Shown piece by piece: positions 50,769-64,000 of a stretch of DNA of 64,000 nt. Made by a program: the position numbers and the translations under genes. Numbering within the stretch: the stretch's first letter is position 1; each line of letters opens with the position of its first letter. The stretch comes from Pseudomonadota bacterium. Lineage in GTDB: Bacteria; Bdellovibrionota; Bacteriovoracia; Bacteriovoracales; Bacteriovoracaceae. The DNA lies in NCBI GenBank assembly GCA_027487515.1, contig JAIYDL010000018.1, positions 1-64,000 of the forward strand, written 5' to 3'. The notes below the pieces were generated by a model. The model did no database searches and had not been told where the DNA came from. It saw nothing but the letters and a program-made list of their open reading frames with translations.

Positions 50769-52184
50769 ATGAACTGGGAATTGATTGGGATCGGCCTGTA
50801 TGTCATCGGTATGATCGGGATGGGGATTTTCTTCTCCCGCCGGATTAAGACCGACGCTGATTATTTCTTGGGTGGACGGACCTTGGGTCCGTACCTGGCG
50901 ACGTTTTCCATCTTTGCCACATGGTTCGGAGCGGAGACCTGCATCGGCACGGCCGGGGCCGTTTACCGCCATGGTCTGGCCAGTCTTCACGCAGATCCTC
51001 TCGGCTACACGGTCTGTCTCTTGCTCATGGGAGTCCTGTTTGCCAAAGTCCTCTGGGAGCGGCAGATCACGACGATCCCGGATCTCTTTCGGCAGAGGTA
51101 TTCGGCGGCCGCAGAAAAGCTCGCCGCACTCATCTTGATTCCAAGCTCCATCATTTGGTCCGGTGCGCAGGTCCGGGCCCTGGGGCAGATCGTCCACGCC
51201 ACCACCGATGTGGGCCCTCTCGTGGCGGTCACGGTCGCCGCTGCGGTGGTGATTTGCTACACGATGTTCGGTGGGATGCTCGCCGACGCCTACGCCGATC
51301 TGATTCAGGGCATTGCGATCATGATCGGCCTCTTTCTTTTGGTGGGGGCCATTGTCCTGGACCTCGGAGGCATCGAGGCGACGCTGCGGACGATCCCCCT
51401 CGAGAAACTGAGCTTTTCCGGAGGAGAAATGCCGGGCCTCTCGTTTCTTGGGAAGCTCGAGCTCTGGCTCGTGCCGATCTTCGGGTCGGTGATGGCCCAG
51501 GAGCTTGTCGGAAGAGTCGCCGCTAGCCGCTCGGGTGCCGTGGCGCGGAACTCCGCGTTCCGTGCCGCCGGGATTTACCTCCTGGTGGGCTCGGTGCCAG
51601 TGCTCTTGGGTCTTCTGGGGTCTCGCTACTACCCAGGTCTTAACGATCCGGAGACTCTCATGCCGGCCCTGGCGCGGGCCCATCTCCCGTACTTCCTCTA
51701 CATCGTCTTCATCGGCGCTCTGATCTCGGCCATCTTGTCTACGGTGGATACGACGCTTCTGGCGAGCTCCGCACTCCTTTCTCACAACTTGATTTACCCG
51801 TCGCTGCCGCACTTAACTGAAAAGCAAAAGGTGCTGGTGGCGCGACTTGGAACCCTCTTCGCTGGGGTCGTCTCCTACGGGATCGCATTCGCTTCCGATT
51901 CCATCACTGGCCTCGTGGAAATGGCCTCGGGTCTCGGAGGGCCCATCATTTTCGTCGTGGCCCTCGCGGCCCTTTGGGACAAGCGCGGAAATGCGACTAG
52001 TGCGTTGGTTGCCCTGGCCTCTGGTCTTGCGAGCTGGCCCGTGTTTCACTTCGTGCTGGATCTGGAGTACCCCGTGATCATGACCATGGTCTCTTGTGCC
52101 GCGGGCTACCTCGTCACTTTGCCTTTCACTGGGCCCTACCCTGGGAACGGGACTGAAACTCTCGCTCCCAAGGCCTCGCCCTAG
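50769..52184 (+). CDS. sodium:solute symporter (SSS family)
   Basis: 471 residues with about thirteen transmembrane helices. SSS signatures are DYFLGGRTLGPYLATFSIFA, ATWFGAETCIGTAGAVYRHG at the sodium/substrate site, and VMAQELVGRVAASRSGAVAR in the fifth-sixth helix region. The fold supports sodium-coupled uptake of a small organic solute; proline, pantothenate or acetate cannot be told apart. Monocistronic. It ends at CTAG shared with the convergent histone-fold gene. Confidence 0.9.
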   Translation: MNWELIGIGLYVIGMIGMGIFFSRRIKTDADYFLGGRTLGPYLATFSIFATWFGAETCIGTAGAVYRHGLASLHADPLGYTVCLLLMGVLFAKVLWERQITTIPDLFRQRYSAAAEKLAALILIPSSIIWSGAQVRALGQIVHATTDVGPLVAVTVAAAVVICYTMFGGMLADAYADLIQGIAIMIGLFLLVGAIVLDLGGIEATLRTIPLEKLSFSGGEMPGLSFLGKLELWLVPIFGSVMAQELVGRVAASRSGAVARNSAFRAAGIYLLVGSVPVLLGLLGSRYYPGLNDPETLMPALARAHLPYFLYIVFIGALISAILSTVDTTLLASSALLSHNLIYPSLPHLTEKQKVLVARLGTLFAGVVSYGIAFASDSITGLVEMASGLGGPIIFVVALAALWDKRGNATSALVALASGLASWPVFHFVLDLEYPVIMTMVSCAAGYLVTLPFTGPYPGNGTETLAPKASP

Positions 52185-52579
52185 GTGAGAGTCGTCGGCG
52201 CCATGAAGTCGCGGTCCATGACTGTTTTGCGCTTATCTGCTTTGGCATTCTCGATCGCCCGCAGGCAGACCGTTTGGATCCGGTTGGTCAGCTGGTCAAT
52301 CGCCTGAGCAGAAGTGGAAAGGTTGGCCTCGTCTTTGACGAGCTTTTTAACTTTTGACGCCACCACGAGAGCTTCCTCGATGTTGATGTTTTCAACGTAG
52401 AGGTTAAAGTCTTTCCCCATGACTGTTTTACGACCCAATTTTTGCGCGTGGGCCACAGCGTCACGGCAGGCCTTCACCACGTCTGAGTTCAGCGGTTCGA
52501 AGAATCCGGTGGAGGTGTTCATATCTGATTTCTCTTTAATGAATTTCTTAACTTTAGAAATAACGATCAGACTTTCCAT
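52181..52579 (-). CDS. bacterial histone-fold doublet protein
   Basis: 132 residues from the ATG at 52579, with AAGGAG upstream; an extension to 52639 is rejected. Two histone-like folds lie end to end: residues ~3-60 (LIVISKVKKFIKEKSDM ... GRKTVMGKDF) and ~69-126 (ALVVASKVKKLVKDEANL ... DKRKTVMDRDF). Each has helix-long helix-helix spacing and ends in an RKTVMxxDF loop/helix that matches the RKT(V/I)xxxD signature of eukaryotic H4 and archaeal histones. The halves also match each other at SKVKK and NTSTG/LSTSA. The doublet can form a pseudo-dimer on its own. Abundant nucleoid histones are known in Bdellovibrio. A TTGACA lies at 52639-52634 upstream. Divergent from the KAS/ole operon. Confidence 0.85.
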   Translation of the reverse strand: MESLIVISKVKKFIKEKSDMNTSTGFFEPLNSDVVKACRDAVAHAQKLGRKTVMGKDFNLYVENINIEEALVVASKVKKLVKDEANLSTSAQAIDQLTNRIQTVCLRAIENAKADKRKTVMDRDFMAPTTLT

Positions 52580-52760
52580 AGCGGGAACTCCTTGAGACTG
52601 GCGGTCGCTTAATCGGCAGCAGTTTTTTAATCGTGTCAATCATGTCTTAAGGTCTCATGGAAATCAAGGTATCTAATCTTAATTGTTCACTATACAAACA
52701 AAGTTCGATGAGCTAATTTTTTCCATCGGTTTGCCTCTCAAAACCTTAGGATTTTTTCTC

Positions 52761-53999
52761 ATGAGTGACTCACAACGCATCGTGATGACGGGGATCGGTC
52801 TGACGGCCCCTAACGGAAATAATTTGGCCGAATTCAGGAAGTCTCTTCTCGAGTGCCGCTCCGGTGTCAAACATCACGAGATCCGTTACATGGGAAAGCA
52901 AGTCGCCGGCATGTGTGACTTTGATGAGTACAAGTATCAGTCCAAAAAACTCCGCCGGCGGGGAACCCGCGCCGGTTCCATTTCCATTTACTGCGCCAAC
53001 GAGGCCATCGCCGATGCGGGCCTTGACTGGGCCAGCACTGATAAATCCATGGTCGGTGTCTACCTCGGAATAACGGAGCACGGGAACGTTGAGACCGAAG
53101 AAGAGATCTACCAGATGCATCAGAATGGCCTGGATTGGAAGCTCTGGTCCCCTCACCACAATCCCCGGACCGTGGCCAATTCCCCGGCCGGTGAAGTGAC
53201 GTTAAACCTCAGCATCACGGGGCCTCATTACACTCTTGGTTCGGCCTGTGCCGGTGGGAATGTGGGCATCATCCAAGGTGTGCAGCAGCTCCTCTTAGGA
53301 GAGGTTGATCTGGCACTTGCGGGTGGGGTCTCTGAATCTTCTCAAACATTTGGCATCTTCGCCGCCTTCGCGGCCCAAGGGGCCCTGGCCCATCACGATG
53401 ACCCGACCCGGGCCTCAAGGCCCTTAGAAAAGAATCGAAACGGGATCGCCATCTCAGAAGGTGGCTGCGTCTTCGTCTTGGAACGTCTTCCAGATGCCCT
53501 GAAGCGCGGGGCCAAGATTTACGCCGAGATCGTAGGCTATGCGATCAACTCCGACGCTACTGACTTCGTGAATCCCAATGGAGAGCGGCAGGTCCAGTGT
53601 ATGCACAAGGCGATCCGCCGGGCAGGCCTTACTCCCGCTGACATCGACCTCGTGAACATGCACGCCACCGGCACTGGCACCGGGGACGTGAATGAATCCC
53701 AAGCGGTGCGGAAAGCGTTCGAGAGCTCGCCCAAGACCTACGTGAACTTCACGAAAGGACACATTGGCCACTGCATGGGGGCCGCGGGCTCCATCGAGCT
53801 TGCGGGCAACATCCCGAGCTTCACCGACGGCCTGGTTCATCCGGGGATGAACTGCGCCGAACTCGATCCAGAATGCGAAATTCCGAACCTCGTCGTCAAC
53901 GAACCTCGACCGGTAGGGAACATTAATTACATCCTCAATAACTCCTTCGGGATGCTGGGGATCAACTCAGCGCTAATTGTAAAGAAGTATCAGGCATAA
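52761..53999 (+). CDS. beta-ketoacyl-ACP synthase (KAS I/II, FabF-like)
   Basis: 413 residues from the ATG at 52761 (MSDSQRIVMTGIGLTAPNG). Catalytic triad complete: Cys163 in YTLGSACAGGNVGII, His301 in NMHATGTGTGDVNE, and Lys332/His337 in FTKGHIGHCMGAAG. The cysteine motif differs from FabF (usually TACATG), so this is a divergent, probably specialised chain-elongating synthase. First gene of a seven-gene operon; the ACP starts 10 bases after it. It presumably extends an acyl chain on that ACP. Confidence 0.93.
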   Translation: MSDSQRIVMTGIGLTAPNGNNLAEFRKSLLECRSGVKHHEIRYMGKQVAGMCDFDEYKYQSKKLRRRGTRAGSISIYCANEAIADAGLDWASTDKSMVGVYLGITEHGNVETEEEIYQMHQNGLDWKLWSPHHNPRTVANSPAGEVTLNLSITGPHYTLGSACAGGNVGIIQGVQQLLLGEVDLALAGGVSESSQTFGIFAAFAAQGALAHHDDPTRASRPLEKNRNGIAISEGGCVFVLERLPDALKRGAKIYAEIVGYAINSDATDFVNPNGERQVQCMHKAIRRAGLTPADIDLVNMHATGTGTGDVNESQAVRKAFESSPKTYVNFTKGHIGHCMGAAGSIELAGNIPSFTDGLVHPGMNCAELDPECEIPNLVVNEPRPVGNINYILNNSFGMLGINSALIVKKYQA

Positions 54000-54009
54000 G
54001 GAGATACCT

Positions 54010-54261
54010 ATGGCAGACGTAAGACAGATCGTGATTGATATCATCTCAGACATAGCTCCAGACGAAGACGTTTCGAGCATCGACGATGCGAAGTCCCTGC
54101 GCGAGCAGCTGGACCTCGATTCCATGGATTTCCTCGACATCGTGATGGAACTCCGGAAGCGGCATAAGGTTGAAGTTCCTCAGGAAGATTATCCGAAGCT
54201 CGCCTCCCTCCAGAGTTGCGTCGCTTACCTCGGGCCTAAGTTCGCGGCCGCACCCGTTTAG
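54010..54261 (+). CDS. acyl carrier protein
   Basis: 83 residues, acidic, four-helix ACP. The phosphopantetheine serine is Ser38 in QLDLDSMDFLDIVMEL (consensus DSL replaced by DSM). Ribosome binding site AAGGAG. Set between the KAS and the FAD oxidoreductase with 10- and 6-base gaps, so it is most likely a dedicated carrier for the pathway and not the housekeeping AcpP. Confidence 0.94.
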   Translation: MADVRQIVIDIISDIAPDEDVSSIDDAKSLREQLDLDSMDFLDIVMELRKRHKVEVPQEDYPKLASLQSCVAYLGPKFAAAPV

Positions 54262-54267
54262 GATCAG

Positions 54268-55674
54268 ATGACCTACGACGCGATCGTCATCGGCGCTGGG
54301 ATGTCGGGGCTCGCCGCTGGGATCCGGCTGGCGATGTTCGACAAGAGAGTGCTCATAATCGAGAAACACTCCATCCCCGGTGGCCTCAATTCTTATTACC
54401 AGCGGCGAAACTTCGACCGGGGCGGGATTCGGCAATTCGACGTGGGTCTTCACGCGCTCACGAATTTCATTAAAAAAGGGGAGAAAGGGAAGCCCTTTTC
54501 GAAACTCTTAAAACAGCTCCGACTCTCCTACGATGACTTTAAACTTTGCCCCCAGAGCTACTCGGCGATCCGGTTCCCAGGAACGGAGCTGCGCTTCTCC
54601 AACGACTTCGAACTTCTTCGAAGTGAGATCTCCGCGAAGTTTCCCCAAGACATTGATGGCTTCAACCTTCTGGTGGAAAAAGTCCGGGCCTTCAACGAAC
54701 TCGACCTCTCTTTAGGCTACACGTCGTCTCGGGAAGTCCTCCGAGGTATCCTGAAGGATGAACTCCTCGCGGAGATGCTGCTTTGTCCGCTCCTGATCTA
54801 TGGCTCGGCCTGGGAAGACGACATGGATTTCGCGCAGTTTGTGATCATGTTCAAGTCTCTCTACTTCGAGGGCTTCTCGAGACCAGAGGGTGGTGTGCGC
54901 ACCATCCTCGGACTTCTGATGACCAAGCTCCAAGAGCTTGGTGCTGAAGTCCGATTTAAAACCACTGTCTCCGAAATCCTCGTCAAAAACGGCGAGGCCG
55001 TCGGTGTCGTGGCCGGAGGGGAAGAGATCCGGGCCCCGGTCGTGTTCTCATCGATCGGCTTTCCGGAGACCGCGGTCCTTGCCCCATCCTTAGACGCGAG
55101 ACCTCGAGTGGGGGCCATGACCTTCTTGGAAAGTATCTTCGTCTTCGATCGGAAAATCCCCCTCTCCTCGAACGAGGCGACGATTGTGTTTTCTAACAAT
55201 TCTCAAACCTACGCTTACCGACCGGCCCAAAATTACTTCGATGCCGTCTCGGCCGTCGTCTGTTTCCCGGATAACTATGAGCCCCACGTCCGAGACGGAG
55301 AGGGCACTGTCCGAGTGACCTACATGGCCAACTACCAGCAGTGGAAGGAGCTCGAGCGATCGCGCTACCTCGAGATGAAGGAGAAGGTCGGGGAGAGTGC
55401 TCTGGCCCTGGTGAAGTCTCTGGTGCCGGGCCTCGCTGAAAAGCCACTCTTCACGGATGTCTTTTCTCCGCTCACCATCGAGCGGTACACGGGCCACTTC
55501 AACGGCACGGTCTACGGGTCCACTGACAAGACCCGCGACGGCCGAACCCCAGTCAAGAATCTCTTCGTCATCGGCACGGACCAGGGCTTCCTCGGGATCG
55601 TCGGTGCCATGCTCTCGGGGATCTCGATGGCCAACCTCCACGGCCTCATGGGCGAAGCGAAGCAGGGCCAATGA
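54268..55674 (+). CDS. CrtI-like FAD-dependent oxidoreductase/desaturase
   Basis: 468 residues. The N-terminal dinucleotide fold (AIVIGAGMSGLAAGIRLA) and IIEKHSIPGGLNSYYQR identify the phytoene-desaturase/retinol-saturase superfamily. The C-terminal FAD contact is NLFVIGTDQGFLGIVGAMLSG. No signal peptide. Carotenoid genes are absent; instead it sits between an ACP and oleA, so an acyl-ACP or acyl-thioester chain is the likely substrate, introducing or reducing double bonds. Overlaps oleA by 4 bases (ATGA). Confidence 0.87.
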   Translation: MTYDAIVIGAGMSGLAAGIRLAMFDKRVLIIEKHSIPGGLNSYYQRRNFDRGGIRQFDVGLHALTNFIKKGEKGKPFSKLLKQLRLSYDDFKLCPQSYSAIRFPGTELRFSNDFELLRSEISAKFPQDIDGFNLLVEKVRAFNELDLSLGYTSSREVLRGILKDELLAEMLLCPLLIYGSAWEDDMDFAQFVIMFKSLYFEGFSRPEGGVRTILGLLMTKLQELGAEVRFKTTVSEILVKNGEAVGVVAGGEEIRAPVVFSSIGFPETAVLAPSLDARPRVGAMTFLESIFVFDRKIPLSSNEATIVFSNNSQTYAYRPAQNYFDAVSAVVCFPDNYEPHVRDGEGTVRVTYMANYQQWKELERSRYLEMKEKVGESALALVKSLVPGLAEKPLFTDVFSPLTIERYTGHFNGTVYGSTDKTRDGRTPVKNLFVIGTDQGFLGIVGAMLSGISMANLHGLMGEAKQGQ

Positions 55675-56699
55675 TCTTTCAAAAACTCTCTCTTCATTCC
55701 TATGCGTCTCAAGCGCCCACGGAGTTTCTTACCTCCGATGAGATCGAAGCTTCACTCGCGTCGCTCTACGACCGGGCCCGGCTTCCCTACGGCAGGCTCG
55801 AACTCCAGACCGGGATCAAACGTCGGGGTCTCTGGCCCAATGGGACGCGTCCCTCGACCATCGCCGCTCAGGCGGCGGAGCAAATCCTGGAGTACTTTCC
55901 CAGAGAGAAGATTGACCTTCTCCTTCATGCCTCGGTTTGTCGGGACTTCTTAGAGCCCGCGACGGCGGCCCAGGTGCACCGGAACCTTCGGCTCTCCGCC
56001 CACTGCATGATCGCAGATCTTTCCAACGCCTGCCTTGGGGTCCTTTCGAGCATCATCATGGCGGGCCAGATGATCGAGCGCGGAGCGATCCGAACGGCGT
56101 TGATTGTTTCCGGAGAAAACGCGGGGCCTTTGATCCGAGAAACTCTGAAACACCTAGTGACCGACCCTGCGATGGACCGCAAGCGCCTGAAGCCCTACAT
56201 GGCCTCGTTGACCATCGGCTCTGCAGCGGTGGCGTTTCTTTTGACCCATTCTGATTTAGCACCCGGAGCGCCAAAGATTTTGGGTGGATCTTCCCTCACG
56301 GACTCCTCGGCGGTTGAACTTTGCCAAGGGGATGGTTCCACTCATGGGTTAATGATGGAGACGGATTCGGAGGCCCTCCTCAAAGCGGGTGTCGCCTTGG
56401 CGAGAGAGAACTGGGAAAAATGCCGCACACTTCTGGGGTGGGAGAATCGTGACGTCGATCGAATCATTCCCCACCAGGTGGGCACGGCCCACCGCTTGGC
56501 GATGCTCACCCAGCTTGGTCTTCCTCTAGACCGAGACTTTCAGACCTATGAACAATTCGGGAATACGGGATCAGCGGCTCTGCCTCTCACGCTCATTAAG
56601 GCGAGCGAGGCCGGGTTCCTAAGGCCCGGTGATAAAGTTGCCCTTCTAGGGATCGGCAGTGGTTTAACGAGCACTATGCTCGGAATGGAGTGGACGTGA
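55671..56699 (+). CDS. oleA: OleA, head-to-head acyl-CoA condensing thiolase
   Basis: 342 residues. KAS III/thiolase fold that joins two fatty acyl thioesters head to head into a 2-alkyl-3-ketoacid. Catalytic Cys121 (DLSNACLGVLSS), His268 (IIPHQVGTAH) and Asn298 (FGNTGSAALP) are all present. Glu95 in CRDFLEPATAA matches the glutamate that distinguishes OleA, where it deprotonates the second acyl chain, from FabH. Directly followed by oleB and oleC, which makes the assignment firm. Confidence 0.93.
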   Translation: MIFQKLSLHSYASQAPTEFLTSDEIEASLASLYDRARLPYGRLELQTGIKRRGLWPNGTRPSTIAAQAAEQILEYFPREKIDLLLHASVCRDFLEPATAAQVHRNLRLSAHCMIADLSNACLGVLSSIIMAGQMIERGAIRTALIVSGENAGPLIRETLKHLVTDPAMDRKRLKPYMASLTIGSAAVAFLLTHSDLAPGAPKILGGSSLTDSSAVELCQGDGSTHGLMMETDSEALLKAGVALARENWEKCRTLLGWENRDVDRIIPHQVGTAHRLAMLTQLGLPLDRDFQTYEQFGNTGSAALPLTLIKASEAGFLRPGDKVALLGIGSGLTSTMLGMEWT

Positions 56700-57574
56700 C
56701 GGCCATCAGGGATCGCATCAAAGAGCTCGGCCTCGAGGAGCAGTATCCGTTTAGGTCTCATTTTTTGAGCCTCGGAGGAAAGAACCTTCACTATGTGGAC
56801 GAGGGCCAGGGTCAGCCGATCCTCATGCTTCATGGGAATCCGACCTGGTCATTTTACTACCGGAATCTCATCCGCACCTTTTCCCCAAAGTTCCGCGCCG
56901 TGGTGCCGGATCACATGGGCTGTGGCATGTCCGATAAACCTCAGGACTACGACTACTCTCTGGAGACGCACATCCAAAATGCTTACCAACTCATCCGCTT
57001 CCTGGACCTGAAGAAGATCATTCTCATCGTCCACGACTGGGGGGGAGCGATTGGGTTCGGGCTCGTCACTCGCTACCCGGAACTCTTCGAGCGCATCGTG
57101 ATTTTGAACACGGCCGCCTACCCCTCCGAGCACATCCCCCAGCGGATCAACCTCCTTCGGCAGGGCCGAGTCGGGGAGTGGCTCACGCGTCAGCTCAACC
57201 TCTTCGCCTGGCCCGCGACCTTTATGACCACCGAGAAGAAGCTCCCGCGGGCGATCAAAGACGGCTATCTTTTGCCGTACAATTCGTGGGAAAACCGCAT
57301 CGCCGTCGCTCGCTTCGTCCAGGATATTCCCATGGAGAAGGAGCATAAAACCTACCAGACCTTGGTGGACATCGAGGCGCGGCTGGCGGGTCTACCGCAC
57401 CCGAAACTCATCCTCTGGGGAGGCAAAGATTTTTGCTTCAATCACCACTACTTTGAGAAGTGGGTCCAGATCTACCCGAGTGCCCAGGCGCATTGGTTCG
57501 CGGCCGCAGGCCACTATGTCTTGGAAGATGCCCTGGACGAGGTCTCACTTAAAATTTGGGACTTCGTAAAGTAG
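56696..57574 (+). CDS. oleB: OleB, beta-lactone decarboxylase (alpha/beta hydrolase)
   Basis: 292 residues. Haloalkane-dehalogenase-like alpha/beta hydrolase: oxyanion LMLHGNPTWSFYYRN, nucleophile Asp in IVHDWGGAIGFGL (about residue 114) and catalytic His in AAGHYVLEDA. OleB converts the beta-lactone from OleC to the cis-olefin plus CO2. The GTG at 56696 overlaps the oleA stop (GTGA) and has GGAG at 5 bases; GTG at 56690 is an alternative that adds two residues. Start choice is the only uncertainty. Confidence 0.9.
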   Translation: MTAIRDRIKELGLEEQYPFRSHFLSLGGKNLHYVDEGQGQPILMLHGNPTWSFYYRNLIRTFSPKFRAVVPDHMGCGMSDKPQDYDYSLETHIQNAYQLIRFLDLKKIILIVHDWGGAIGFGLVTRYPELFERIVILNTAAYPSEHIPQRINLLRQGRVGEWLTRQLNLFAWPATFMTTEKKLPRAIKDGYLLPYNSWENRIAVARFVQDIPMEKEHKTYQTLVDIEARLAGLPHPKLILWGGKDFCFNHHYFEKWVQIYPSAQAHWFAAAGHYVLEDALDEVSLKIWDFVK

Positions 57575-57587
57575 GGGAGGGCCGTCC

Positions 57588-59231
57588 GTGAACATCGCCC
57601 AGAGAATCTGCGACGTCGCCGCCCGGTTTCCCGAGAAGCCCTCCGTGGTTCTGGCAAAGGATAAGTCGTTCTACACGTTCCAAGAATTCGAGGAGCGCTC
57701 CAACCGACTCGCCAACCGCTTCCAGCGGCTGGGGATCCGGCCGGGGATGCGCACACTCCTGTTCGTTAAACCGTGCCTCGATTTCTCTGTGATCACTTTT
57801 GCTCTCTTTAAACTGGGGGCCGTTCCGGTTCTGATCGATCCCGGTATGGGGCTGCCCAATCTTTTAAACTCGGTCAAACAAGTAAGGCCCGAGGCGCTCA
57901 TCTCCGTAGGCCTCGTCCATTGGGTCCGCCGCCTGAGGTCCAGTTTTTTTTCTTCGGTCCAGGTGAAAATCTCTCTCAACCGTGTCGGGGGCGCAACCCA
58001 CTACCTCTATGACGATCTGTCGGTCGAGGCGTCGACATTTCCACCTCTGGCCGTGACCTCCGATGCCCTCGCCGCCATCCTCTTCACTTCGGGGGGGACG
58101 GGGATTCCGAAAGGTGTCCTTTACACGCACGGAATCCTGAACGCACAAACGGATGTTCTGCAGAAGATGTTTTCCCTCGATGAACACAAGACCGACTTGC
58201 CCGGCTTCCCGCTCTTTGCCCTCTTCACTCTCGCCATGGGGATGACTTCTGTGATTCCGGAAATGGACCCCACGAGACCTGCTGGGTGCGACCCTGCGAA
58301 AATCGTTCGGAACATCAAGGACCATGGGGTGACCTTCGTCGCGGGCTCCCCGGCGATCTGGGAGCGAGTCGGGCGCTACTGTGTCGACAACGCCATCACG
58401 CTTGCGTCTTTGGAGCAGGTGGTGATGTTCGGTGCACCGGTGAGGCCCGAGGTCCACCAACTCTTTCAGCAAGTGTTGCCCAAGGGAGACACGTTCACTC
58501 CCTATGGCGCCACGGAGTGTTTACCGGTGTCGCTGACGTCAGGCTCAGAGATCCTGAAGGCCCATCTTCCGCTCATGCGTAAAGGCTTCGGGACTTGTAT
58601 CGGCAAGGCCGTTCCAGGAGTGAGACTGAAAATTATAAAAACTTCGGATATTCCAGAGGATGCTCTTAAGGAATGTGCACCCGGTGAGGTGGGAGAAATC
58701 GCCGTCCAAGGACCGCAGGTCACGCCGGGGTACTTTGAGATGCCGGAGGAAACAAAGCGCTCGAAGATCCTTTCAGAGGGAGAGCTCTGGCACCGCATGG
58801 GAGACCTGGGCCGCTTGGATCAGGACCAGAATCTTTGGTTTCTTGGGCGGAAGGTCCATCGGGTGGAATCGGAAACCGGGACCCACTTCTCGATCCAACT
58901 CGAAGCGATCTTTAACCAGCACCCAGAGATCCGCAAGTGTGCCTTAGTGAAGCTCACCGTGGACTCGAAGGTTGTTCCGGGTCTTGTCATCGAGCGCCAT
59001 GACCGGTCCACGCGCATGAGCGCTGCCTTTTACCAAGAGCTCCTTCGGCTTCGAGATTCGGAAGTCTTCACTCAACCGATCGCCCAGTTCTTCCTGCACA
59101 AGGCGCTTCCGGTCGACATTCGTCACAACATCAAGATTGACCGCACCGGACTCTCGGTCTGGGCACAAAAGCGCCTTGGAAAGTCTCTCCCTCAGGGACC
59201 TCTCTCGTCGCAGAGATCCCTTAAATCTTAG
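57588..59231 (+). CDS. oleC: OleC, beta-lactone synthetase (AMP-ligase fold)
   Basis: 547 residues, ANL superfamily. ATP loop ILFTSGGTGIPKGVLYTHG (split: LFTSGGTGIPKG), adenine-binding TPYGATECLPVS, and WHRMGDLGRLDQDQNLWFLG with the ribose-binding Asp. OleC adenylates the 2-alkyl-3-hydroxy acid and closes the beta-lactone ring. GTG start with GAGG upstream, 13 bases after oleB. Followed 13 bases later by the AI-2E-family gene. Confidence 0.92.
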   Translation: MNIAQRICDVAARFPEKPSVVLAKDKSFYTFQEFEERSNRLANRFQRLGIRPGMRTLLFVKPCLDFSVITFALFKLGAVPVLIDPGMGLPNLLNSVKQVRPEALISVGLVHWVRRLRSSFFSSVQVKISLNRVGGATHYLYDDLSVEASTFPPLAVTSDALAAILFTSGGTGIPKGVLYTHGILNAQTDVLQKMFSLDEHKTDLPGFPLFALFTLAMGMTSVIPEMDPTRPAGCDPAKIVRNIKDHGVTFVAGSPAIWERVGRYCVDNAITLASLEQVVMFGAPVRPEVHQLFQQVLPKGDTFTPYGATECLPVSLTSGSEILKAHLPLMRKGFGTCIGKAVPGVRLKIIKTSDIPEDALKECAPGEVGEIAVQGPQVTPGYFEMPEETKRSKILSEGELWHRMGDLGRLDQDQNLWFLGRKVHRVESETGTHFSIQLEAIFNQHPEIRKCALVKLTVDSKVVPGLVIERHDRSTRMSAAFYQELLRLRDSEVFTQPIAQFFLHKALPVDIRHNIKIDRTGLSVWAQKRLGKSLPQGPLSSQRSLKS

Positions 59232-59244
59232 CCCGGAGGTTGCG

Positions 59245-60348
59245 GTGAATAAGGAACTAAGTATCCGGTTACTCTACGTGCTTGTGCTCGTGGGGGCCCT
59301 CTTCGTTTTAGTCTGGCCCTTTGTGATCCCGCTCATCTTTGCAGCAACGGTGGCCCTGGCGCTGAAGCCTCTTCATTCGCGACTGGTACAGAAGGGTCTC
59401 ACCGGGGCAAGTGCCGCGGGAGTCCTGACCGCGCTCTTGGGGTTTGTCCTGAGTGTTCCTCTTTCGTTTTTCATCGTCAAAGGCACCGTCGCCGTGACGA
59501 CGAAGCTCGAGGAACTGGCGATCAACAAACTTCTGCGGGACCAGGGAGTCACGGCGCTGGTGAAGGACATCCGGCACGACTTCATCCTGGCGATCCAAGA
59601 GTACTCCGCGCGGTTTGAGTTTTTGGACTTTCTGAGCGAGAAAAAAATAGATAACTACCTCGGCATCGTGATCACCTACCTCCTGGATTCCTTCCGCGCC
59701 TTCCTCGCCCAGGTGCCGACGCTCTTCATCCTGCTTCTCATCATGATCCTCTGCACGTACTCCTTCCTGCGACACGCCGGTCGGATTCGCAGGTTCTTCC
59801 AGAGTCTCCTCGGCTTCTCCGACTCGAAAATGGATGAGCTCATTCATATCCTGGTGATGGACTCTCGGTCGGTGTACCTTTCGAACATCGTCACGGGAGT
59901 GGTCCAGTCACTCTTGGTGGCATCCGGGGTCAGGCTTCTGGGTCTCGGGGATTTCTTCCTCGTGTTCTTCATCACGCTCATGCTGTCTTTTATCCCGGTG
60001 ATCGGTGCGGCCCCGGTGGCTTTCCTTTTCGCCCTGCTGGGTCTCGTGAATGGCAACGTTCAAGCGGCCATCATCCTCGGCTGCTTGGGGGCCTTCACTG
60101 GGCTCGTGGATAATATCCTTCGACCCTGGCTGGCCACGTTCGGGGAAAGTAAGATTCCCCCTGTCTTTGCCTTCATCTGTGTCATCGGAGGTGCCCTGTG
60201 GCTGGGATTCCCAGGACTCTTCATTGGCCTTTTGATCGGCTCCTTTGCCTACGATACGGTGCCCATCTTTTGGGAAGAATTCAATACCCGAGGGGCGGAC
60301 AAGGCACTAGCACCCCGGGATCAAGGCGACCGGGAAGGCCTAGGCTAG
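59245..60348 (+). CDS. AI-2E-family (TqsA/YdiK-type) membrane transporter
   Basis: 367 residues from GTG, with GGAGG upstream; an in-frame extension to 59137 into oleC is rejected. About seven helices. The family C-terminus is clear: LSFIPVIGAAPVAFLFALLG, then DNILRPWLATFGESKIPPVF and FIGLLIGSFAYD. PF01594 proteins include exporters of quorum signals and sodium/proton antiporters; no substrate is implied here. Its place after oleC in the same operon suggests export or membrane placement of the hydrocarbon product or an intermediate, as inference. Ends at a shared CTAG. Confidence 0.9.
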   Translation: MNKELSIRLLYVLVLVGALFVLVWPFVIPLIFAATVALALKPLHSRLVQKGLTGASAAGVLTALLGFVLSVPLSFFIVKGTVAVTTKLEELAINKLLRDQGVTALVKDIRHDFILAIQEYSARFEFLDFLSEKKIDNYLGIVITYLLDSFRAFLAQVPTLFILLLIMILCTYSFLRHAGRIRRFFQSLLGFSDSKMDELIHILVMDSRSVYLSNIVTGVVQSLLVASGVRLLGLGDFFLVFFITLMLSFIPVIGAAPVAFLFALLGLVNGNVQAAIILGCLGAFTGLVDNILRPWLATFGESKIPPVFAFICVIGGALWLGFPGLFIGLLIGSFAYDTVPIFWEEFNTRGADKALAPRDQGDREGLG

Positions 60349-61325
60349 TCTCTAAAGAATTTGAGAATCTCCTGGAGGGCGGCCCCGCGGATGGAGTCTT
60401 TTTCCATCAGGATCTCGTGGCGGGCCTCGGGGAATTTGAGCATCCGGCAGAAAGAGGAGCGACAGAACGTATTCTGCCGACCATTCTTCACCACAAGTTC
60501 CTGGCCCGCCTGAAAGAGCAGCACCGGAGTGCTGATCTGGGCGCGGTCAATCCGGCGAGTGACTTTGAGCGCCTGATTAACCCAACGAACCGTGGCACCG
60601 CCGACGGCGAGCTCGGGCCTTTGGGCGATGAGCTCGGAGCTTGCCTGGTAGCGAACCTCACTATGGGTGACGGTGTTGCCTTCGAATGGAAGGTTGACGT
60701 ACGGCACTTGCCCCGGGGCGTAGGTCGATCCCTTGCCGAGGATCACCAGGAGCCCAGCGTAGATCCGGGCCACCGGCTCAGTGTACGGAGTGGTATCGAG
60801 CTCAAGCATCGGTGCGGAGAGGACGGCTTTTTTGACGATGCCCGGATGGCGCTTGAGGTAGAGTGTGGCGATGGTCCCGCCCATGGAGTGGGCCAGGATG
60901 TAGATGTCTTTTTTAAGCGGAAGAACTACTTCGCTCATGAGCTGCTCAACGTCTCTGACGTAGTCATCAAACCGCGCCACATGTCCTTTCTCTGTGTCCC
61001 GAAGAAGTCGCCCCGATTCTCCTTGACCTTGATGGTCGAGAAGAACGAGGTCGTAGCCTTCGTTTCGAAGATCGAAGAGGACCTCGGCGTACTTCCTCGC
61101 GGGCTCGGTTCGTCCTGGGAGAATCACCAGGACCTTTTGGTTAGCGGCACTCCGGTGAGCGAAGTAGGTGAGCTCAAGTCCCTGACGGTTGCGAAGAACG
61201 CCGGAGGGAAGGCCCTCAAAGAACGGGAGAACTTCTTCGCGCCACTGGGTCCGGAAGGTCTCTTCAGGAATTGCCAGGGCGACGGAACTGATCAGGAGGG
61301 TCAGGAGAGCGAGAGTCGTTTTCAT
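60345..61325 (-). CDS. exported alpha/beta hydrolase (lysophospholipase/monoacylglycerol-lipase-like)
   Basis: 326 residues with a signal peptide (MKTTLALLTLLISSVALA). Serine-hydrolase elements: LVILPGRTEPARKYAEVL, LDHQGQGESGR, nucleophile elbow ILAHSMGGTIATL, a late Asp region (VLLFQAGQELVV) and a C-terminal His (PEARHEILME). Related to PldB and monoacylglycerol lipases, acting in the periplasm. It separates oleC/transporter from oleD and is on the opposite strand, sharing a CTAG with the transporter gene. Confidence 0.86.
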   Translation of the reverse strand: MKTTLALLTLLISSVALAIPEETFRTQWREEVLPFFEGLPSGVLRNRQGLELTYFAHRSAANQKVLVILPGRTEPARKYAEVLFDLRNEGYDLVLLDHQGQGESGRLLRDTEKGHVARFDDYVRDVEQLMSEVVLPLKKDIYILAHSMGGTIATLYLKRHPGIVKKAVLSAPMLELDTTPYTEPVARIYAGLLVILGKGSTYAPGQVPYVNLPFEGNTVTHSEVRYQASSELIAQRPELAVGGATVRWVNQALKVTRRIDRAQISTPVLLFQAGQELVVKNGRQNTFCRSSFCRMLKFPEARHEILMEKDSIRGAALQEILKFFRD

Positions 61326-61398
61326 GGGCTTAGCCTACTTGGGCCCCGGTGCCGCAGTCAATCTGGACGAAGGTAGGCGGAAGATTTAACATGGACCT

Positions 61399-62406
61399 AT
61401 GCGAATCCTTGTGACAGGTGGCGGTGGATTCTTAGGAACCCACATCATCAAAGAACTCCTTAAGAATCCGGCCTCAATTGTGACGAATCTTTCTCGTCAC
61501 ACCTACGCCCATCTCGAGGACCTGGGAGTCCCCACCATTCGCGGGGACCTCCGGCACCGCCAGGACGTTGAACGGGCCCTCCGACAAGGCTTCGACGCCA
61601 TTTTCCACGTAGCAGCACTGGCCGGTGTCTGGGGAAAGTACGAGGACTACTACGGCATCAACTACCTCGGCACCAAGAACCTCGTCGAGGTTGCAAAGGA
61701 GATGGGAGTGAGTCGTTTCGTCTACACTTCGACGCCGTCGGTGGTCTTCAACAAAGACGATCTTCTGGGAGTGGGCGAAGAGCAGCCCTATGCCACGGAA
61801 TTTTTGAACGGGTATTCCGAGACGAAGACCTTGGCCGAAAAATTGGTTCTGGCGGCCAACGACGGACAATCCTTTTTGACCTGTGCCATTAGGCCCCACC
61901 TCATCTGGGGGCCGGGAGACCCGCACCTCTTTCCGCGGGTGATTCAAAAGGGGCGAGAGGGGAAACTGCGCATGGTGGGCGACGGGGAGAATCTCGTCGA
62001 TGTCATCTACGTGGAAAACGCGGCCCTGGCCCACGTGCAGGCCCTGGAGCATCTCTCCCCCGGATCCGCGGTCTGTGGCGAGGCCTACTTCGTCGGGCAG
62101 GAGAGACCCGTGAAGCTTTGGGATTTCATCAATCAGGTCCTCGCACAGGTGAAGCTCGACCCCGTGAGCGGTGCGATCGACGTCTCCGCGGCGTACCGGC
62201 TGGGATGGCTCCTGGAAAAAGTTTTTGGGCTCTTAGGCATTAACAAACCCGAGCCGCCCATGACTCGGTTCGTGGCGCTCAACCTTGGCAAGTCCCATTA
62301 CTTCTCCCACGAGAAGGCCCGGCGACACTTTGGCTACGTTCCTCGGATTTCGATCGAAGAAGGGCTCCGGCGGACCTTCGCCCACCGGGAACTCACGGGG
62401 CGCTAG
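61399..62406 (+). CDS. oleD: OleD, NADPH-dependent 2-alkyl-3-ketoacid reductase
   Basis: 335 residues. Extended SDR fold: ILVTGGGGFLGTHIIKEL cofactor motif, catalytic YSETKTLAEK (Tyr-x3-Lys), and HLIWGPGDPHLFPRV. OleD reduces the OleA product before OleC closes the lactone. It is not contiguous with oleABC but lies 1.05 kb downstream on the same strand and completes the pathway. Sequence alone could also fit a sterol-dehydrogenase-type epimerase; context decides. Ends at CTAG, overlapping the convergent fabI. Confidence 0.88.
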   Translation: MRILVTGGGGFLGTHIIKELLKNPASIVTNLSRHTYAHLEDLGVPTIRGDLRHRQDVERALRQGFDAIFHVAALAGVWGKYEDYYGINYLGTKNLVEVAKEMGVSRFVYTSTPSVVFNKDDLLGVGEEQPYATEFLNGYSETKTLAEKLVLAANDGQSFLTCAIRPHLIWGPGDPHLFPRVIQKGREGKLRMVGDGENLVDVIYVENAALAHVQALEHLSPGSAVCGEAYFVGQERPVKLWDFINQVLAQVKLDPVSGAIDVSAAYRLGWLLEKVFGLLGINKPEPPMTRFVALNLGKSHYFSHEKARRHFGYVPRISIEEGLRRTFAHRELTGR

Positions 62407-63182
62407 ATCTTTTTTGCGAAGGTTTTGACCACGGCCTGGTCGAAGGTGTTGCAGCTCATGCCCGCGTCGACCAGAACGGTGGTGGCATTGATCCCGCTTG
62501 ACTTGGGAGAGAGCAGGAAGCAGACGGTGTTGGCCACTTCCTGGGTTTCGAGCGCCGCTCGTCGAAGTGTCAGGGCCTCTGCGAAAAGGTAGTTATCGAT
62601 GTAGTCCGGGATACCGGCACTCGCGGACGTCTTGAGGGGGCCTGCTCCCACGGCGTTGACCCTGATGCGAGAGAAGTCGGAGAACGACTTCGCGAGGTAG
62701 GGGACGGTGGCGTCGAGCATGGCCTTGATGGGCCCGAGGTAGCCGTAGCTCGTGGCCCTGGTGTTGGAGATAGAAATCGTTACGATGCTGGCGGTGGGGA
62801 CCAAGCACTCCCGAAGCTGGTGACTCATTTCGACAAGCGAGAAGCAACTGATCTGGGCCGCTTGAAGGTAGTCTTCGCGCTTGGTCTCAAGAAACGGCTT
62901 GGGGCCTTCAGAGAAATTCGCAAACGCCAGGGAGTGGACGAAACCGTCGAGTGGTCGAGCGACCTTGGCGCCTAGGTCCCGGTCCTTTTCCACGTCGAAG
63001 ACGAAGCACTCTGATCCTGGGAAGAGCTTCGTCACCGCAGGGAGATGGGCCTCACTCTGAACGGAAAAGAGGCACGTCGCTCCGTGTTCAATCAGCGTTC
63101 GAGCGGTGAAGAAGGCCACGGATTTTTTGTTGGCGACGCCGGAGATGAGAAAGGTTCGGCCAGCGACATCCAGGAAGTTCAT
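62403..63182 (-). CDS. fabI: enoyl-ACP reductase, FabI-like
   Basis: 259 residues. FabI-type atypical SDR: ISGVANKKSVAFFTARTL (NAD loop), then SYGYLGPIKAMLDATVPYLA with the Tyr-x6-Lys pair, then RVNAVGAGPLKTSASAGI. The last is the FabI ISAGPI(R/K)T signature with minor changes. Saturates the enoyl chain at the end of each elongation round. ATGA overlap with fabZ upstream and a CTAG overlap with oleD. Could be a specialised paralogue instead of the cell's main enoyl reductase. Confidence 0.88.
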   Translation of the reverse strand: MNFLDVAGRTFLISGVANKKSVAFFTARTLIEHGATCLFSVQSEAHLPAVTKLFPGSECFVFDVEKDRDLGAKVARPLDGFVHSLAFANFSEGPKPFLETKREDYLQAAQISCFSLVEMSHQLRECLVPTASIVTISISNTRATSYGYLGPIKAMLDATVPYLAKSFSDFSRIRVNAVGAGPLKTSASAGIPDYIDNYLFAEALTLRRAALETQEVANTVCFLLSPKSSGINATTVLVDAGMSCNTFDQAVVKTFAKKI

Positions 63183-63616
63183 TCCGCTCCCTCGTTTTCA
63201 ACCAGTGTTGCCGCGAATTCGATGGTCATGATGGTTTTCCCCTCGCAGGTGATTTTTCCTTTCATGAACGCAGCGTTCGCGAGCATCTCGATGAAGTCGA
63301 CGGTGATGTGGAGGAGATCCCCGGGGCGAGCGATGTTTTTGAACTTCGTCCCTTGGATCCTCGTCACAAGGGCGGTCTTAGAGTTTCCCGCTGCCTCGCC
63401 TCGAAGGGCCATTAGGAGAGCACCGGTCTGGAACGCGGCCTCACACAGGAGCACCCCGGGCATGACCGGTCGACCTGGAAAGTGGCCCCGAAAAAAATCC
63501 TCGTCTCCCGTGAGCTTCTTCGACGTCGTGATGGAGGTCTCCGAGCTATCGACGATCTGTTCGATGAAGAGGAAAGGATCGCGCTGAGGGATGTTGGCAA
63601 GGATGGTCTCAAGCAT
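63179..63616 (-). CDS. fabZ: 3-hydroxyacyl-ACP dehydratase, FabZ-like
   Basis: 145 residues from the ATG at 63616 (GGAGG upstream); the longer frame to 63703 lies in fabG and is rejected. Hotdog fold with the FabZ active site: DEDFFRGHFPGRPVMPGVLL with the catalytic His, and CEAAFQTGALL with the Glu. N-terminal IPQRDPFLFIEQIVD matches FabZ. Removes water from 3-hydroxyacyl-ACP. Between fabG and fabI in a coupled trio. Confidence 0.92.
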   Translation of the reverse strand: MLETILANIPQRDPFLFIEQIVDSSETSITTSKKLTGDEDFFRGHFPGRPVMPGVLLCEAAFQTGALLMALRGEAAGNSKTALVTRIQGTKFKNIARPGDLLHITVDFIEMLANAAFMKGKITCEGKTIMTIEFAATLVENEGAE

Positions 63617-64000
63617 TGAGGCCTCCGGCGACGTCGAGGGTTGCCCCGGTGATGTAGGAAGCCTCGCGGGCGGCGAAGAAGAGGACCGCGTGGGCCACCT
63701 CATCGACTTTCCCGAACCGCTTCATCGGCACCTGAGACTTGTACTCCTTCACTTGCTCTTCCGGGAGATCGGCCAGAAGCTCGGTCTCGATGAACCCGGG
63801 ACAGACGTTGTTGATGGTGATGTTTCTCTTGGCGACTTCCTTTGAAACCGACAAGGAAAGCGCGATCTGTCCGGCCTTCGACGCGGCGTAGTTGGCCTGT
63901 CCGGGAAGGCCCAGCTTTCCGCCGACGGAGGACATGTTCACGATGCGGCCGTAGCGGTTTTTCATCATCTGGAGGACCGCGAAGCGAGTCATGAGGTAGG
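63609..64000 (-). CDS. fabG: 3-oxoacyl-ACP reductase, FabG-like (partial)
   Basis: The C-terminal 129 or so residues are in the window; the N-terminus lies beyond base 64000. Visible: GRIVNMSSVGGKLGLPGQ with the catalytic Ser, YAASKAGQIAL with Tyr and Lys, NNVCPGFIETELL, and the C-terminal YITGATLDVAGGLNA. Standard FabG/SDR. Overlaps fabZ by 8 bases. More genes of the same operon probably lie outside the window. Confidence 0.92.
   Translation of the reverse strand, partial: YLMTRFAVLQMMKNRYGRIVNMSSVGGKLGLPGQANYAASKAGQIALSLSVSKEVAKRNITINNVCPGFIETELLADLPEEQVKEYKSQVPMKRFGKVDEVAHAVLFFAAREASYITGATLDVAGGLNA

Follow-up and report, generated by a model that had tools for sequence, protein, structure and literature searches.

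An oleABCD hydrocarbon locus in a member of the Bacteriovoracaceae, set with its own discrete type II fatty-acid synthase genes and two CrtI-like flavoenzymes

In Shewanella, OleA links the Pfa synthase to a 31:8 ketone for which a 16:4 chain was inferred, and Ole pathways elsewhere draw on ordinary chains (Allen and colleagues, PMC6463001). Desulfotalea psychrophila makes C31:8 and C31:9 hydrocarbons; its genome is reported to lack a polyketide-type polyunsaturated fatty acid (PUFA) synthase, and its fatty-acid clusters hold the phytoene-dehydrogenase-like genes DP1860, DP2405, and DP2406 (Rattray 2009, PMC2649909). That report proposed an anaerobic PUFA pathway and takes the hydrocarbon to arise from a long fatty acid by decarboxylation; neither "oleABCD" nor "ole gene" occurs as a term in PMC2649909. 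C31:9 was described in Geobacter bemidjiensis, and a pfa-like Type I source was suggested for Deltaproteobacteria and Planctomycetes (Shulse and Allen, PMC3098273). OleA of Halobacteriovorax marinus is active on a p-nitrophenyl ester (PMC7064751). Here we describe an ole locus in a 64,000-nucleotide stretch (the window) of contig JAIYDL010000018.1 from a member of the Bacteriovoracaceae. The locus comprises eleven pathway genes once CrtI2, a gene beyond the window end, is counted. We consider it probable, at roughly 60%, that this set encodes a type II synthase dedicated to a polyunsaturated acyl chain, bound to the acyl carrier protein (ACP), which OleABCD would join in pairs into a long polyunsaturated hydrocarbon.

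The proposed pathway would begin with chain extension on the ACP by a FabF-like 3-ketoacyl-ACP synthase (KAS), FabG, FabZ, and FabI. Double bonds would be placed or moved in the ACP-bound chain by CrtI1 and CrtI2. OleA would condense two such chains, OleD would reduce the keto group, OleC would close the beta-lactone, and OleB would remove CO2, leaving a central double bond. With Desulfotalea and Shewanella as guides, a C31:8 to C31:9 product built from C16:4-type chains is likely.

The genome was assessed at 3.4 Mb in 27 contigs and 93.9% complete; the part of the window considered here is the right-end part, on contig C6. KAS, ACP, CrtI1, OleA, OleB, and OleC follow one another on the same strand, with junctions that overlap or are separated by 6-13 bases. 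The first-pass annotation had placed these six genes and a transporter in one operon; the coupling of the six was borne out, but the transporter is not conserved and is not a core part. OleD does follow, at 61399-62406, but a minus-strand hydrolase (60345-61325) intervenes between the transporter and oleD. FabI, FabZ, and FabG were indeed found converging from the other strand, with the ends of OleD and FabI overlapping by four bases. When the contig was read past the window, this convergent operon proved to start with the second CrtI-like gene, CrtI2. The genes are as follows.

52761..53999, plus strand: KAS, a FabF-like condensing enzyme of a divergent subfamily, from Pfam and NCBIfam matches below all NCBIfam cut-offs listed; start ATG at 52761; Cys-His-His kept.
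54010..54261, plus strand: ACP, a dedicated acyl carrier protein, with its Ser in the motif DSMDF.
54268..55674, plus strand: CrtI1, a flavin adenine dinucleotide (FAD) enzyme with a carotenoid-desaturase-like fold; predicted acyl-chain desaturase or isomerase.
55671..56699, plus strand: OleA, head-to-head condensing thiolase; NF006720 at 380.8 bits, exceeding the cut-off of 285.
56690..57574, plus strand: OleB, alpha/beta hydrolase (beta-lactone decarboxylase), named from its place and homology; no NCBIfam OleB model among its matches.
57588..59231, plus strand: OleC, AMP-binding beta-lactone synthetase; NF006754 at 567 bits, exceeding the cut-off of 478.
59137..60348, plus strand: open reading frame of an AI-2E-type transporter, start inferred; genus-level and non-core.
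60345..61325, minus strand: alpha/beta hydrolase with a signal peptide recognised by eye; an extra gene that sits between oleC and oleD within this genus.
61399..62406, plus strand: OleD, 2-alkyl-3-oxoalkanoate reductase; 355 bits to OleD models, under the cut-off of 580.
62403..63182, minus strand: FabI2, enoyl-ACP-reductase-like; 138.8 bits, under the cut-off of 362; Tyr and Lys kept, Ile at the Tyr146 position.
63179..63616, minus strand: FabZ2, 3-hydroxyacyl-ACP dehydratase, start inferred; His and Glu kept.
63609..64000 and on to contig position 64355, minus strand: FabG2, 3-oxoacyl-ACP reductase, start inferred.
C6:64357-65787, minus strand, outside the window: CrtI2, a CrtI-like flavoenzyme.

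OleA gave a full-length match to the Protein Data Bank entry 3row, which we take to be OleA of Xanthomonas campestris. OleC-specific models scored 434 and 422 bits with OleC, both under their cut-offs; by these scores and that of OleD, the OleC/OleD subfamily here appears to differ from the curated OleC and OleD models. No FabD belongs to the eleven-gene set. A promoter scan of the locus found none, and terminator matches were no more than expected by chance.

We surveyed CrtI1 in 240 genomes of the phylum, our own included (E at most 1e-30), and CrtI2 at E at most 1e-40. In the window's family, 64 of 72 genomes have CrtI1 and 107 of 129 have CrtI2; among the 168 other genomes of the phylum, none has CrtI1. 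Both enzymes were scored in 72 genomes, of which 61 have the two, 3 have CrtI1 only, 1 has CrtI2 only, and 7 have neither; in 40 of the 61 the two genes share a contig, spaced by 5.9-21.6 kb. Near relatives in the family bear the names Bacteriovoracaceae, Peredibacter, and Halobacteriovorax; Halobacteriovorax proteins occur among the CrtI1 relatives, and that genus is likely a member of the window's family. Neighbourhoods were then compared in 35 CrtI1-bearing relatives picked to span genera. The order KAS-ACP-CrtI1-OleA-OleB-OleC-OleD is kept in 33 of them, so the gene association is not due to chance. The two exceptions are L055, where OleA was not found, and L071, a 7-kb contig. In L055 (genome G156), OleB directly follows CrtI1 and OleA is missing from the locus. 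FabI, FabZ, FabG, and CrtI2 all lie near the ole operon in 16 of the 35 relatives, some of them do in 6, and none in 13. The transporter and the hydrolase are present in 4 of 5 same-genus neighbourhoods and in 0 of 30 others, bar one opposite-strand transporter match of 21% identity; the transporter was rejected as a core part, being conserved at genus level only, and the hydrolase does not count as one either.

To look beyond the phylum, named genomes were scanned with an OleA-motif pattern, yielding a sample of at least 118 stretches of up to 8 kb each. Family proteins served as queries, and KAS, ACP, CrtI1, CrtI2, FabZ, or FabI were scored as chain-making genes. Among the matches listed, 19 of the 118 stretches have a chain-making gene near OleA (13 Desulfobulbales-type, 4 Opitutales/Puniceicoccales, and 2 Chloroflexota), 98 have none, and one has a weak match (L177, 26%, 44 bits). 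Of the 13 Desulfobulbales-type contigs, ten are titled Desulfobulbaceae, Desulfobulbales, or Desulfobulbus and three Pseudomonadota or Deltaproteobacteria. The actinobacterial ole loci sampled showed no chain-making gene within stretches of up to 8 kb, one weak match apart, and plasmid searches yielded six actinobacterial OleA relatives and no CrtI2 at E 1e-20. One stretch titled as a Bifidobacterium breve metagenome-assembled genome (L107) bears oleA and oleB; its label is doubtful. Whole-genome searches for CrtI2 in 26 of the scanned genomes, 25 of them non-actinobacterial and one, that of L108, actinobacterial, found it in 14.

All eleven genes stand in a single same-strand run on at least four Desulfobulbaceae-type contigs (L231, L232, L233, and L236), in the order KAS-ACP-CrtI1-CrtI2-FabG-FabZ-FabI-OleA-OleB-OleC-OleD. 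In Chloroflexota, two loci from a single genome (L224 and L225) and one from a second genome (L227) show OleA-KAS-ACP-CrtI1-CrtI2-FabG-FabZ-FabI. Phycisphaerae (L226 and L229) show OleC-OleD-KAS-ACP-CrtI1-CrtI2-FabZ, with FabI too in L229 and no FabG found at either locus. In the cable bacterium Candidatus Electrothrix aarhusensis the genes are spread over two contigs: KAS, ACP, CrtI2, and a fragmented match to CrtI1 lie on L234, and OleA-OleB on L139. Across phyla, identity to the family proteins is 58-67% for KAS, 37-50% for CrtI1, and 50-61% for CrtI2. The gene set occurs in at least four phyla, reduced or rearranged in Phycisphaerae, Chloroflexota, and Opitutales. That the set is kept despite its rearranged order argues for one shared function.

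The Desulfobulbales, the order to which L136 belongs, were surveyed further. At E at most 1e-80, 101 of 146 genomes have CrtI2; at E at most 1e-60, 200 of 257 have CrtI1. Twenty further loci were picked for CrtI2 on a long contig, and all 20 have KAS-ACP-CrtI1-CrtI2; 6 continue through OleD in one same-strand run, 3 carry OleD, or both OleC and OleD, on the facing strand, and 11 have no such ole gene adjoining. From these counts, the four-gene chain module is the core in Desulfobulbales and ole a frequent but inconstant neighbour. Three Desulfobulbales loci (L246, L252, and L255) carry KAS-ACP-CrtI1-CrtI2 with no FabG, FabZ, FabI, or ole gene detected in the 20 kb fetched. These arrangements bear on the idea that a polyunsaturated or other unusual acyl-ACP from the module chiefly supplies membrane lipids, as has been suggested for the ladderanes of anammox bacteria, with Ole a secondary outlet in some lineages. 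It draws support from the 14 of 20 Desulfobulbales loci in which the module has no adjoining OleA, and from the anaerobic PUFA pathway proposed by Rattray (PMC2649909). In the window's family, however, the module adjoins oleABCD in 33 of 35 loci.

The OleA tree also speaks against the membrane-lipid idea. It was built on a chosen subset of 71 rows. Forty of these have chain genes, either close to OleA or in the same genome, and all 40 share one side of a supported branch. Seven rows called unlinked share that side (L195, L176, L096, L126, L171, L193, and L169); the genome of L096, the only one of the seven searched for CrtI2, gave no match. Taking both kinds of evidence together, we regard a mainly membrane-lipid role as somewhat unlikely. 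Quick trees of KAS, CrtI1, and CrtI2 place each phylum on one side of a branch with support of 92 or more, apart from two Phycisphaerae in the KAS tree (support 52). The cluster KAS stand apart from two housekeeping FabF in that tree.

The residues considered here are those assigned as catalytic from knowledge of the enzyme families. They were counted over the window's own, family, and linked rows, after short rows and those lacking a clear match had been dropped; some contigs were counted twice, as the 8-kb and 20-kb locus of one contig (for example, L109/L233). KAS keeps Cys, His, Lys, and His in 48 of 48 rows, and ACP its Ser in 49 of 49. The Cys, Glu, His, and Asn of OleA are kept in 68 of 68 rows, our own included, and the Ser, Tyr, and Lys of OleD in 43 of 43. 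OleB retains its nucleophilic Asp and its His in 58 of 58 rows, and the presence of this enzyme disfavours the stable beta-lactone that the first-pass annotation had offered as an alternative product. FabG has Ser and Tyr in 30 of 31 rows and Lys in 31 of 31, FabZ has His and Glu in 40 of 40, and FabI has the equivalents of Tyr156 and Lys163 in 50 of 50. Catalytic residues thus appear nearly invariant in eight of the eleven proteins. The position equivalent to FabI Tyr146 is Ile in 50 of 50 rows, cross-phylum FabI2 included, and Tyr in the other FabI of the genome, on contig C24; this Ile would be a diagnostic mark of the FabI subfamily. InhA has Phe at this position. Inactivity of FabI2 through loss of Tyr146 was considered and not adopted, the other two residues being kept throughout. 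With these residues kept, KAS, ACP, ketoreductase (KR), dehydratase (DH), and enoyl reductase (ER) make up a discrete type II fatty-acid synthase set.

The two CrtI-like enzymes share 23% identity. Their fold is nearest to that of carotenoid desaturases and also resembles the Propionibacterium acnes fatty-acid isomerase 2b9w. Given this fold and their best family names, the FAD genes might be carotenoid-synthesis genes whose position next to ole is fortuitous. CrtI1 and CrtI2 score 42.6 and 65.2 bits with crtI_fam, however, both far below its cut-off of 238.1, and the genome has a separate carotenoid locus (C12:25465-29925; L270) with a CrtB-like synthase, a CrtI scoring 693 bits, a prenyltransferase (by reading), and CrtY. 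Their linkage to KAS-ACP is moreover kept in four phyla. CrtI1 and CrtI2 were therefore rejected as carotenoid enzymes, and an accidental neighbourhood is extremely improbable.

A second question is what the flavoenzymes would do to an acyl chain. The first-pass annotation had listed a desaturated chain among its options, and the presence of two CrtI-like flavoenzymes favours it. The chain could instead be special in length or branching and not a polyene, the CrtI-like enzymes acting as saturases, as isomerases, or on another substrate, and the product being an ordinary mono- or di-olefin. The fold class does include saturases as well as the isomerase 2b9w, FabI belongs to the set, and Ole pathways elsewhere take ordinary chains (PMC6463001). 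On the other side, the set retains two different CrtI-like enzymes across four phyla, and D. psychrophila, which is related to the one-run forms, makes C31:8 and C31:9 and is reported without a polyketide PUFA synthase (PMC2649909). We consider the non-polyene alternative unlikely.

The genome contains a second set of fatty-acid genes. A single locus on contig C24 carries fabF-acp-fabG-fabD-fabH, each above at least one curated cut-off, and a typical FabI lies at C24:26665-27507, scoring up to 333.6 bits with FabI models versus 138.8 for the cluster FabI. Two more FabZ-like copies are located between lpxD and lpxA on contig C17 and on contig C2. Compared with their C24 counterparts, the cluster KAS, ACP, and FabG show identities of 30%, 29%, and 39%. 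These genes rule out the possibility that the cluster fab genes and ACP are the sole copies of the genome. With a second fab set and a conserved neighbourhood both present, the dedicated-pathway reading of the first-pass annotation is supported.

Another conceivable chain source is a type I Pfa-like synthase, as in Shewanella, with the discrete fab genes incidental. Contig C16 (53349-61340; L008) encodes a secondary-lipid-type synthase made of an AT-ACP-ACP-KR protein (1247 aa) and a KS protein with an AfsA-like hotdog (925 aa), along with an AMP ligase and then membrane proteins, the first of which is an ICMT/PEMT-like methyltransferase. These genes, and the pfa-like Type I source suggested for Deltaproteobacteria and Planctomycetes (PMC3098273), fit such a source. 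This two-ACP synthase is encoded in two genes and scores below the PfaA cut-off. Against such a source, its locus is unlinked to ole, lying on another contig. A profile search of the 93.9% complete genome gave no PfaD over the cut-off (best 24.6 bits versus 449.25). D. psychrophila is, in addition, reported without any such synthase (PMC2649909). A type I source is very unlikely.

Several points weigh against a dedicated route to a polyene hydrocarbon. For the FabA-like domain of FabZ, the cluster copy scores best of the three in the genome (77 versus 51 and 37 bits), and being the best FabZ of an incomplete genome it might also serve general metabolism. No CrtI2-fab gene was seen near the ole operon in the 13 family relatives mentioned above. 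Four genomes with fab genes beside OleA (L155, L159, L091, and L145) gave no CrtI2 match, though two of the four (G303 and G304) do have CrtI1. The 14 Desulfobulbales loci without an adjacent OleA mean that the module's product may serve other lipids too. The C16 synthase could supply chains, and with FabI present a saturated chain is possible. Anammox CrtI homologues failed to desaturate phytoene (Javidpour 2016, PMC4790861). The tie to the C31 polyenes of D. psychrophila is an analogy through taxonomic order and one paper, a limited literature search gave no report on Bacteriovoracaceae hydrocarbons, and the reactions and product proposed here are predicted from genes.

Two neighbouring genes flank the locus. 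A small protein gene on the minus strand (52181-52639), divergent from KAS, accompanies the cluster in 13 of the 35 relatives; its product resembles a tandem histone fold on reading, and its Pfam match lies below threshold (16.9 versus 21.4 bits). At the other end, a membrane protein with a DCC1-like domain (C6:65911-67740; L001:3911-5740) is encoded divergently from CrtI2 and stands beside it in five same-genus loci fetched and in one of a near genus (L060).

C31 polyenes are described both from bacteria that have a Pfa synthase and from at least one reported without it (PMC2649909, PMC6463001). If a dedicated polyene-hydrocarbon route is correct, the eleven-gene set would answer what supplies the chains in the latter. 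It would represent a way to make an acyl chain highly unsaturated with no Pfa synthase involved, and would add relatives of the flavoenzymes whose part in ladderane synthesis has long been suspected. For predatory Bacteriovoracaceae and for cable bacteria, it leads to a definite prediction about their lipids. A broader proposal is offered tentatively, as possible rather than probable: a discrete, Pfa-independent, and probably oxygen-independent route to C31 polyenes may be shared by Bacteriovoracaceae, sulfate reducers and cable bacteria, Phycisphaerae, and Chloroflexota. CrtI1 and CrtI2 might then be a new class of carrier-protein-dependent acyl desaturases or isomerases, and the route an ancestor or cousin of the polyene half of ladderane synthesis.

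A literature search of titles and abstract openings found no account in which oleABCD is combined with a discrete synthase and CrtI-like enzymes. The locus resembles the OleABCD pathway of Xanthomonas, Micrococcus, and Shewanella in that OleA, OleB, OleC, and OleD are all present and clustered and that the catalytic residues of OleA, OleB, and OleD are kept. Known clusters use chains from general or Pfa metabolism, whereas dedicated KAS, ACP, KR, DH, and ER and two FAD enzymes are found here. With the Pfa-OleABCD system of Shewanella, which yields hentriacontanonaene (PMC6463001), it shares the coupling of Ole to a dedicated chain maker and a likely polyunsaturated product, but discrete enzymes and CrtI-like flavoenzymes replace the multidomain Pfa, with no PfaD over the cut-off. 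Beta-lactone natural-product clusters contain oleACD without oleB, unlike the window locus. Carotenoid CrtI, CrtD, and CrtISO have the same fold and FAD motif as CrtI1 and CrtI2, which score below the carotenoid family cut-offs and have other neighbour genes. The type II synthase and phytoene-dehydrogenase clusters of D. psychrophila and Kuenenia (PMC2649909) are similar in their extra FabF, ACP, FabG, and FabZ and their phytoene-dehydrogenase-like genes, and two of these in D. psychrophila have neighbouring locus numbers, as CrtI1-CrtI2 do in Desulfobulbales. Those clusters differ in containing S-adenosylmethionine (SAM) radical genes; none was found in Pfam scans of the window-locus genes from 52181 to contig position 67740. 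Ole chemistry itself is known; what appears new here is the source of its chains.

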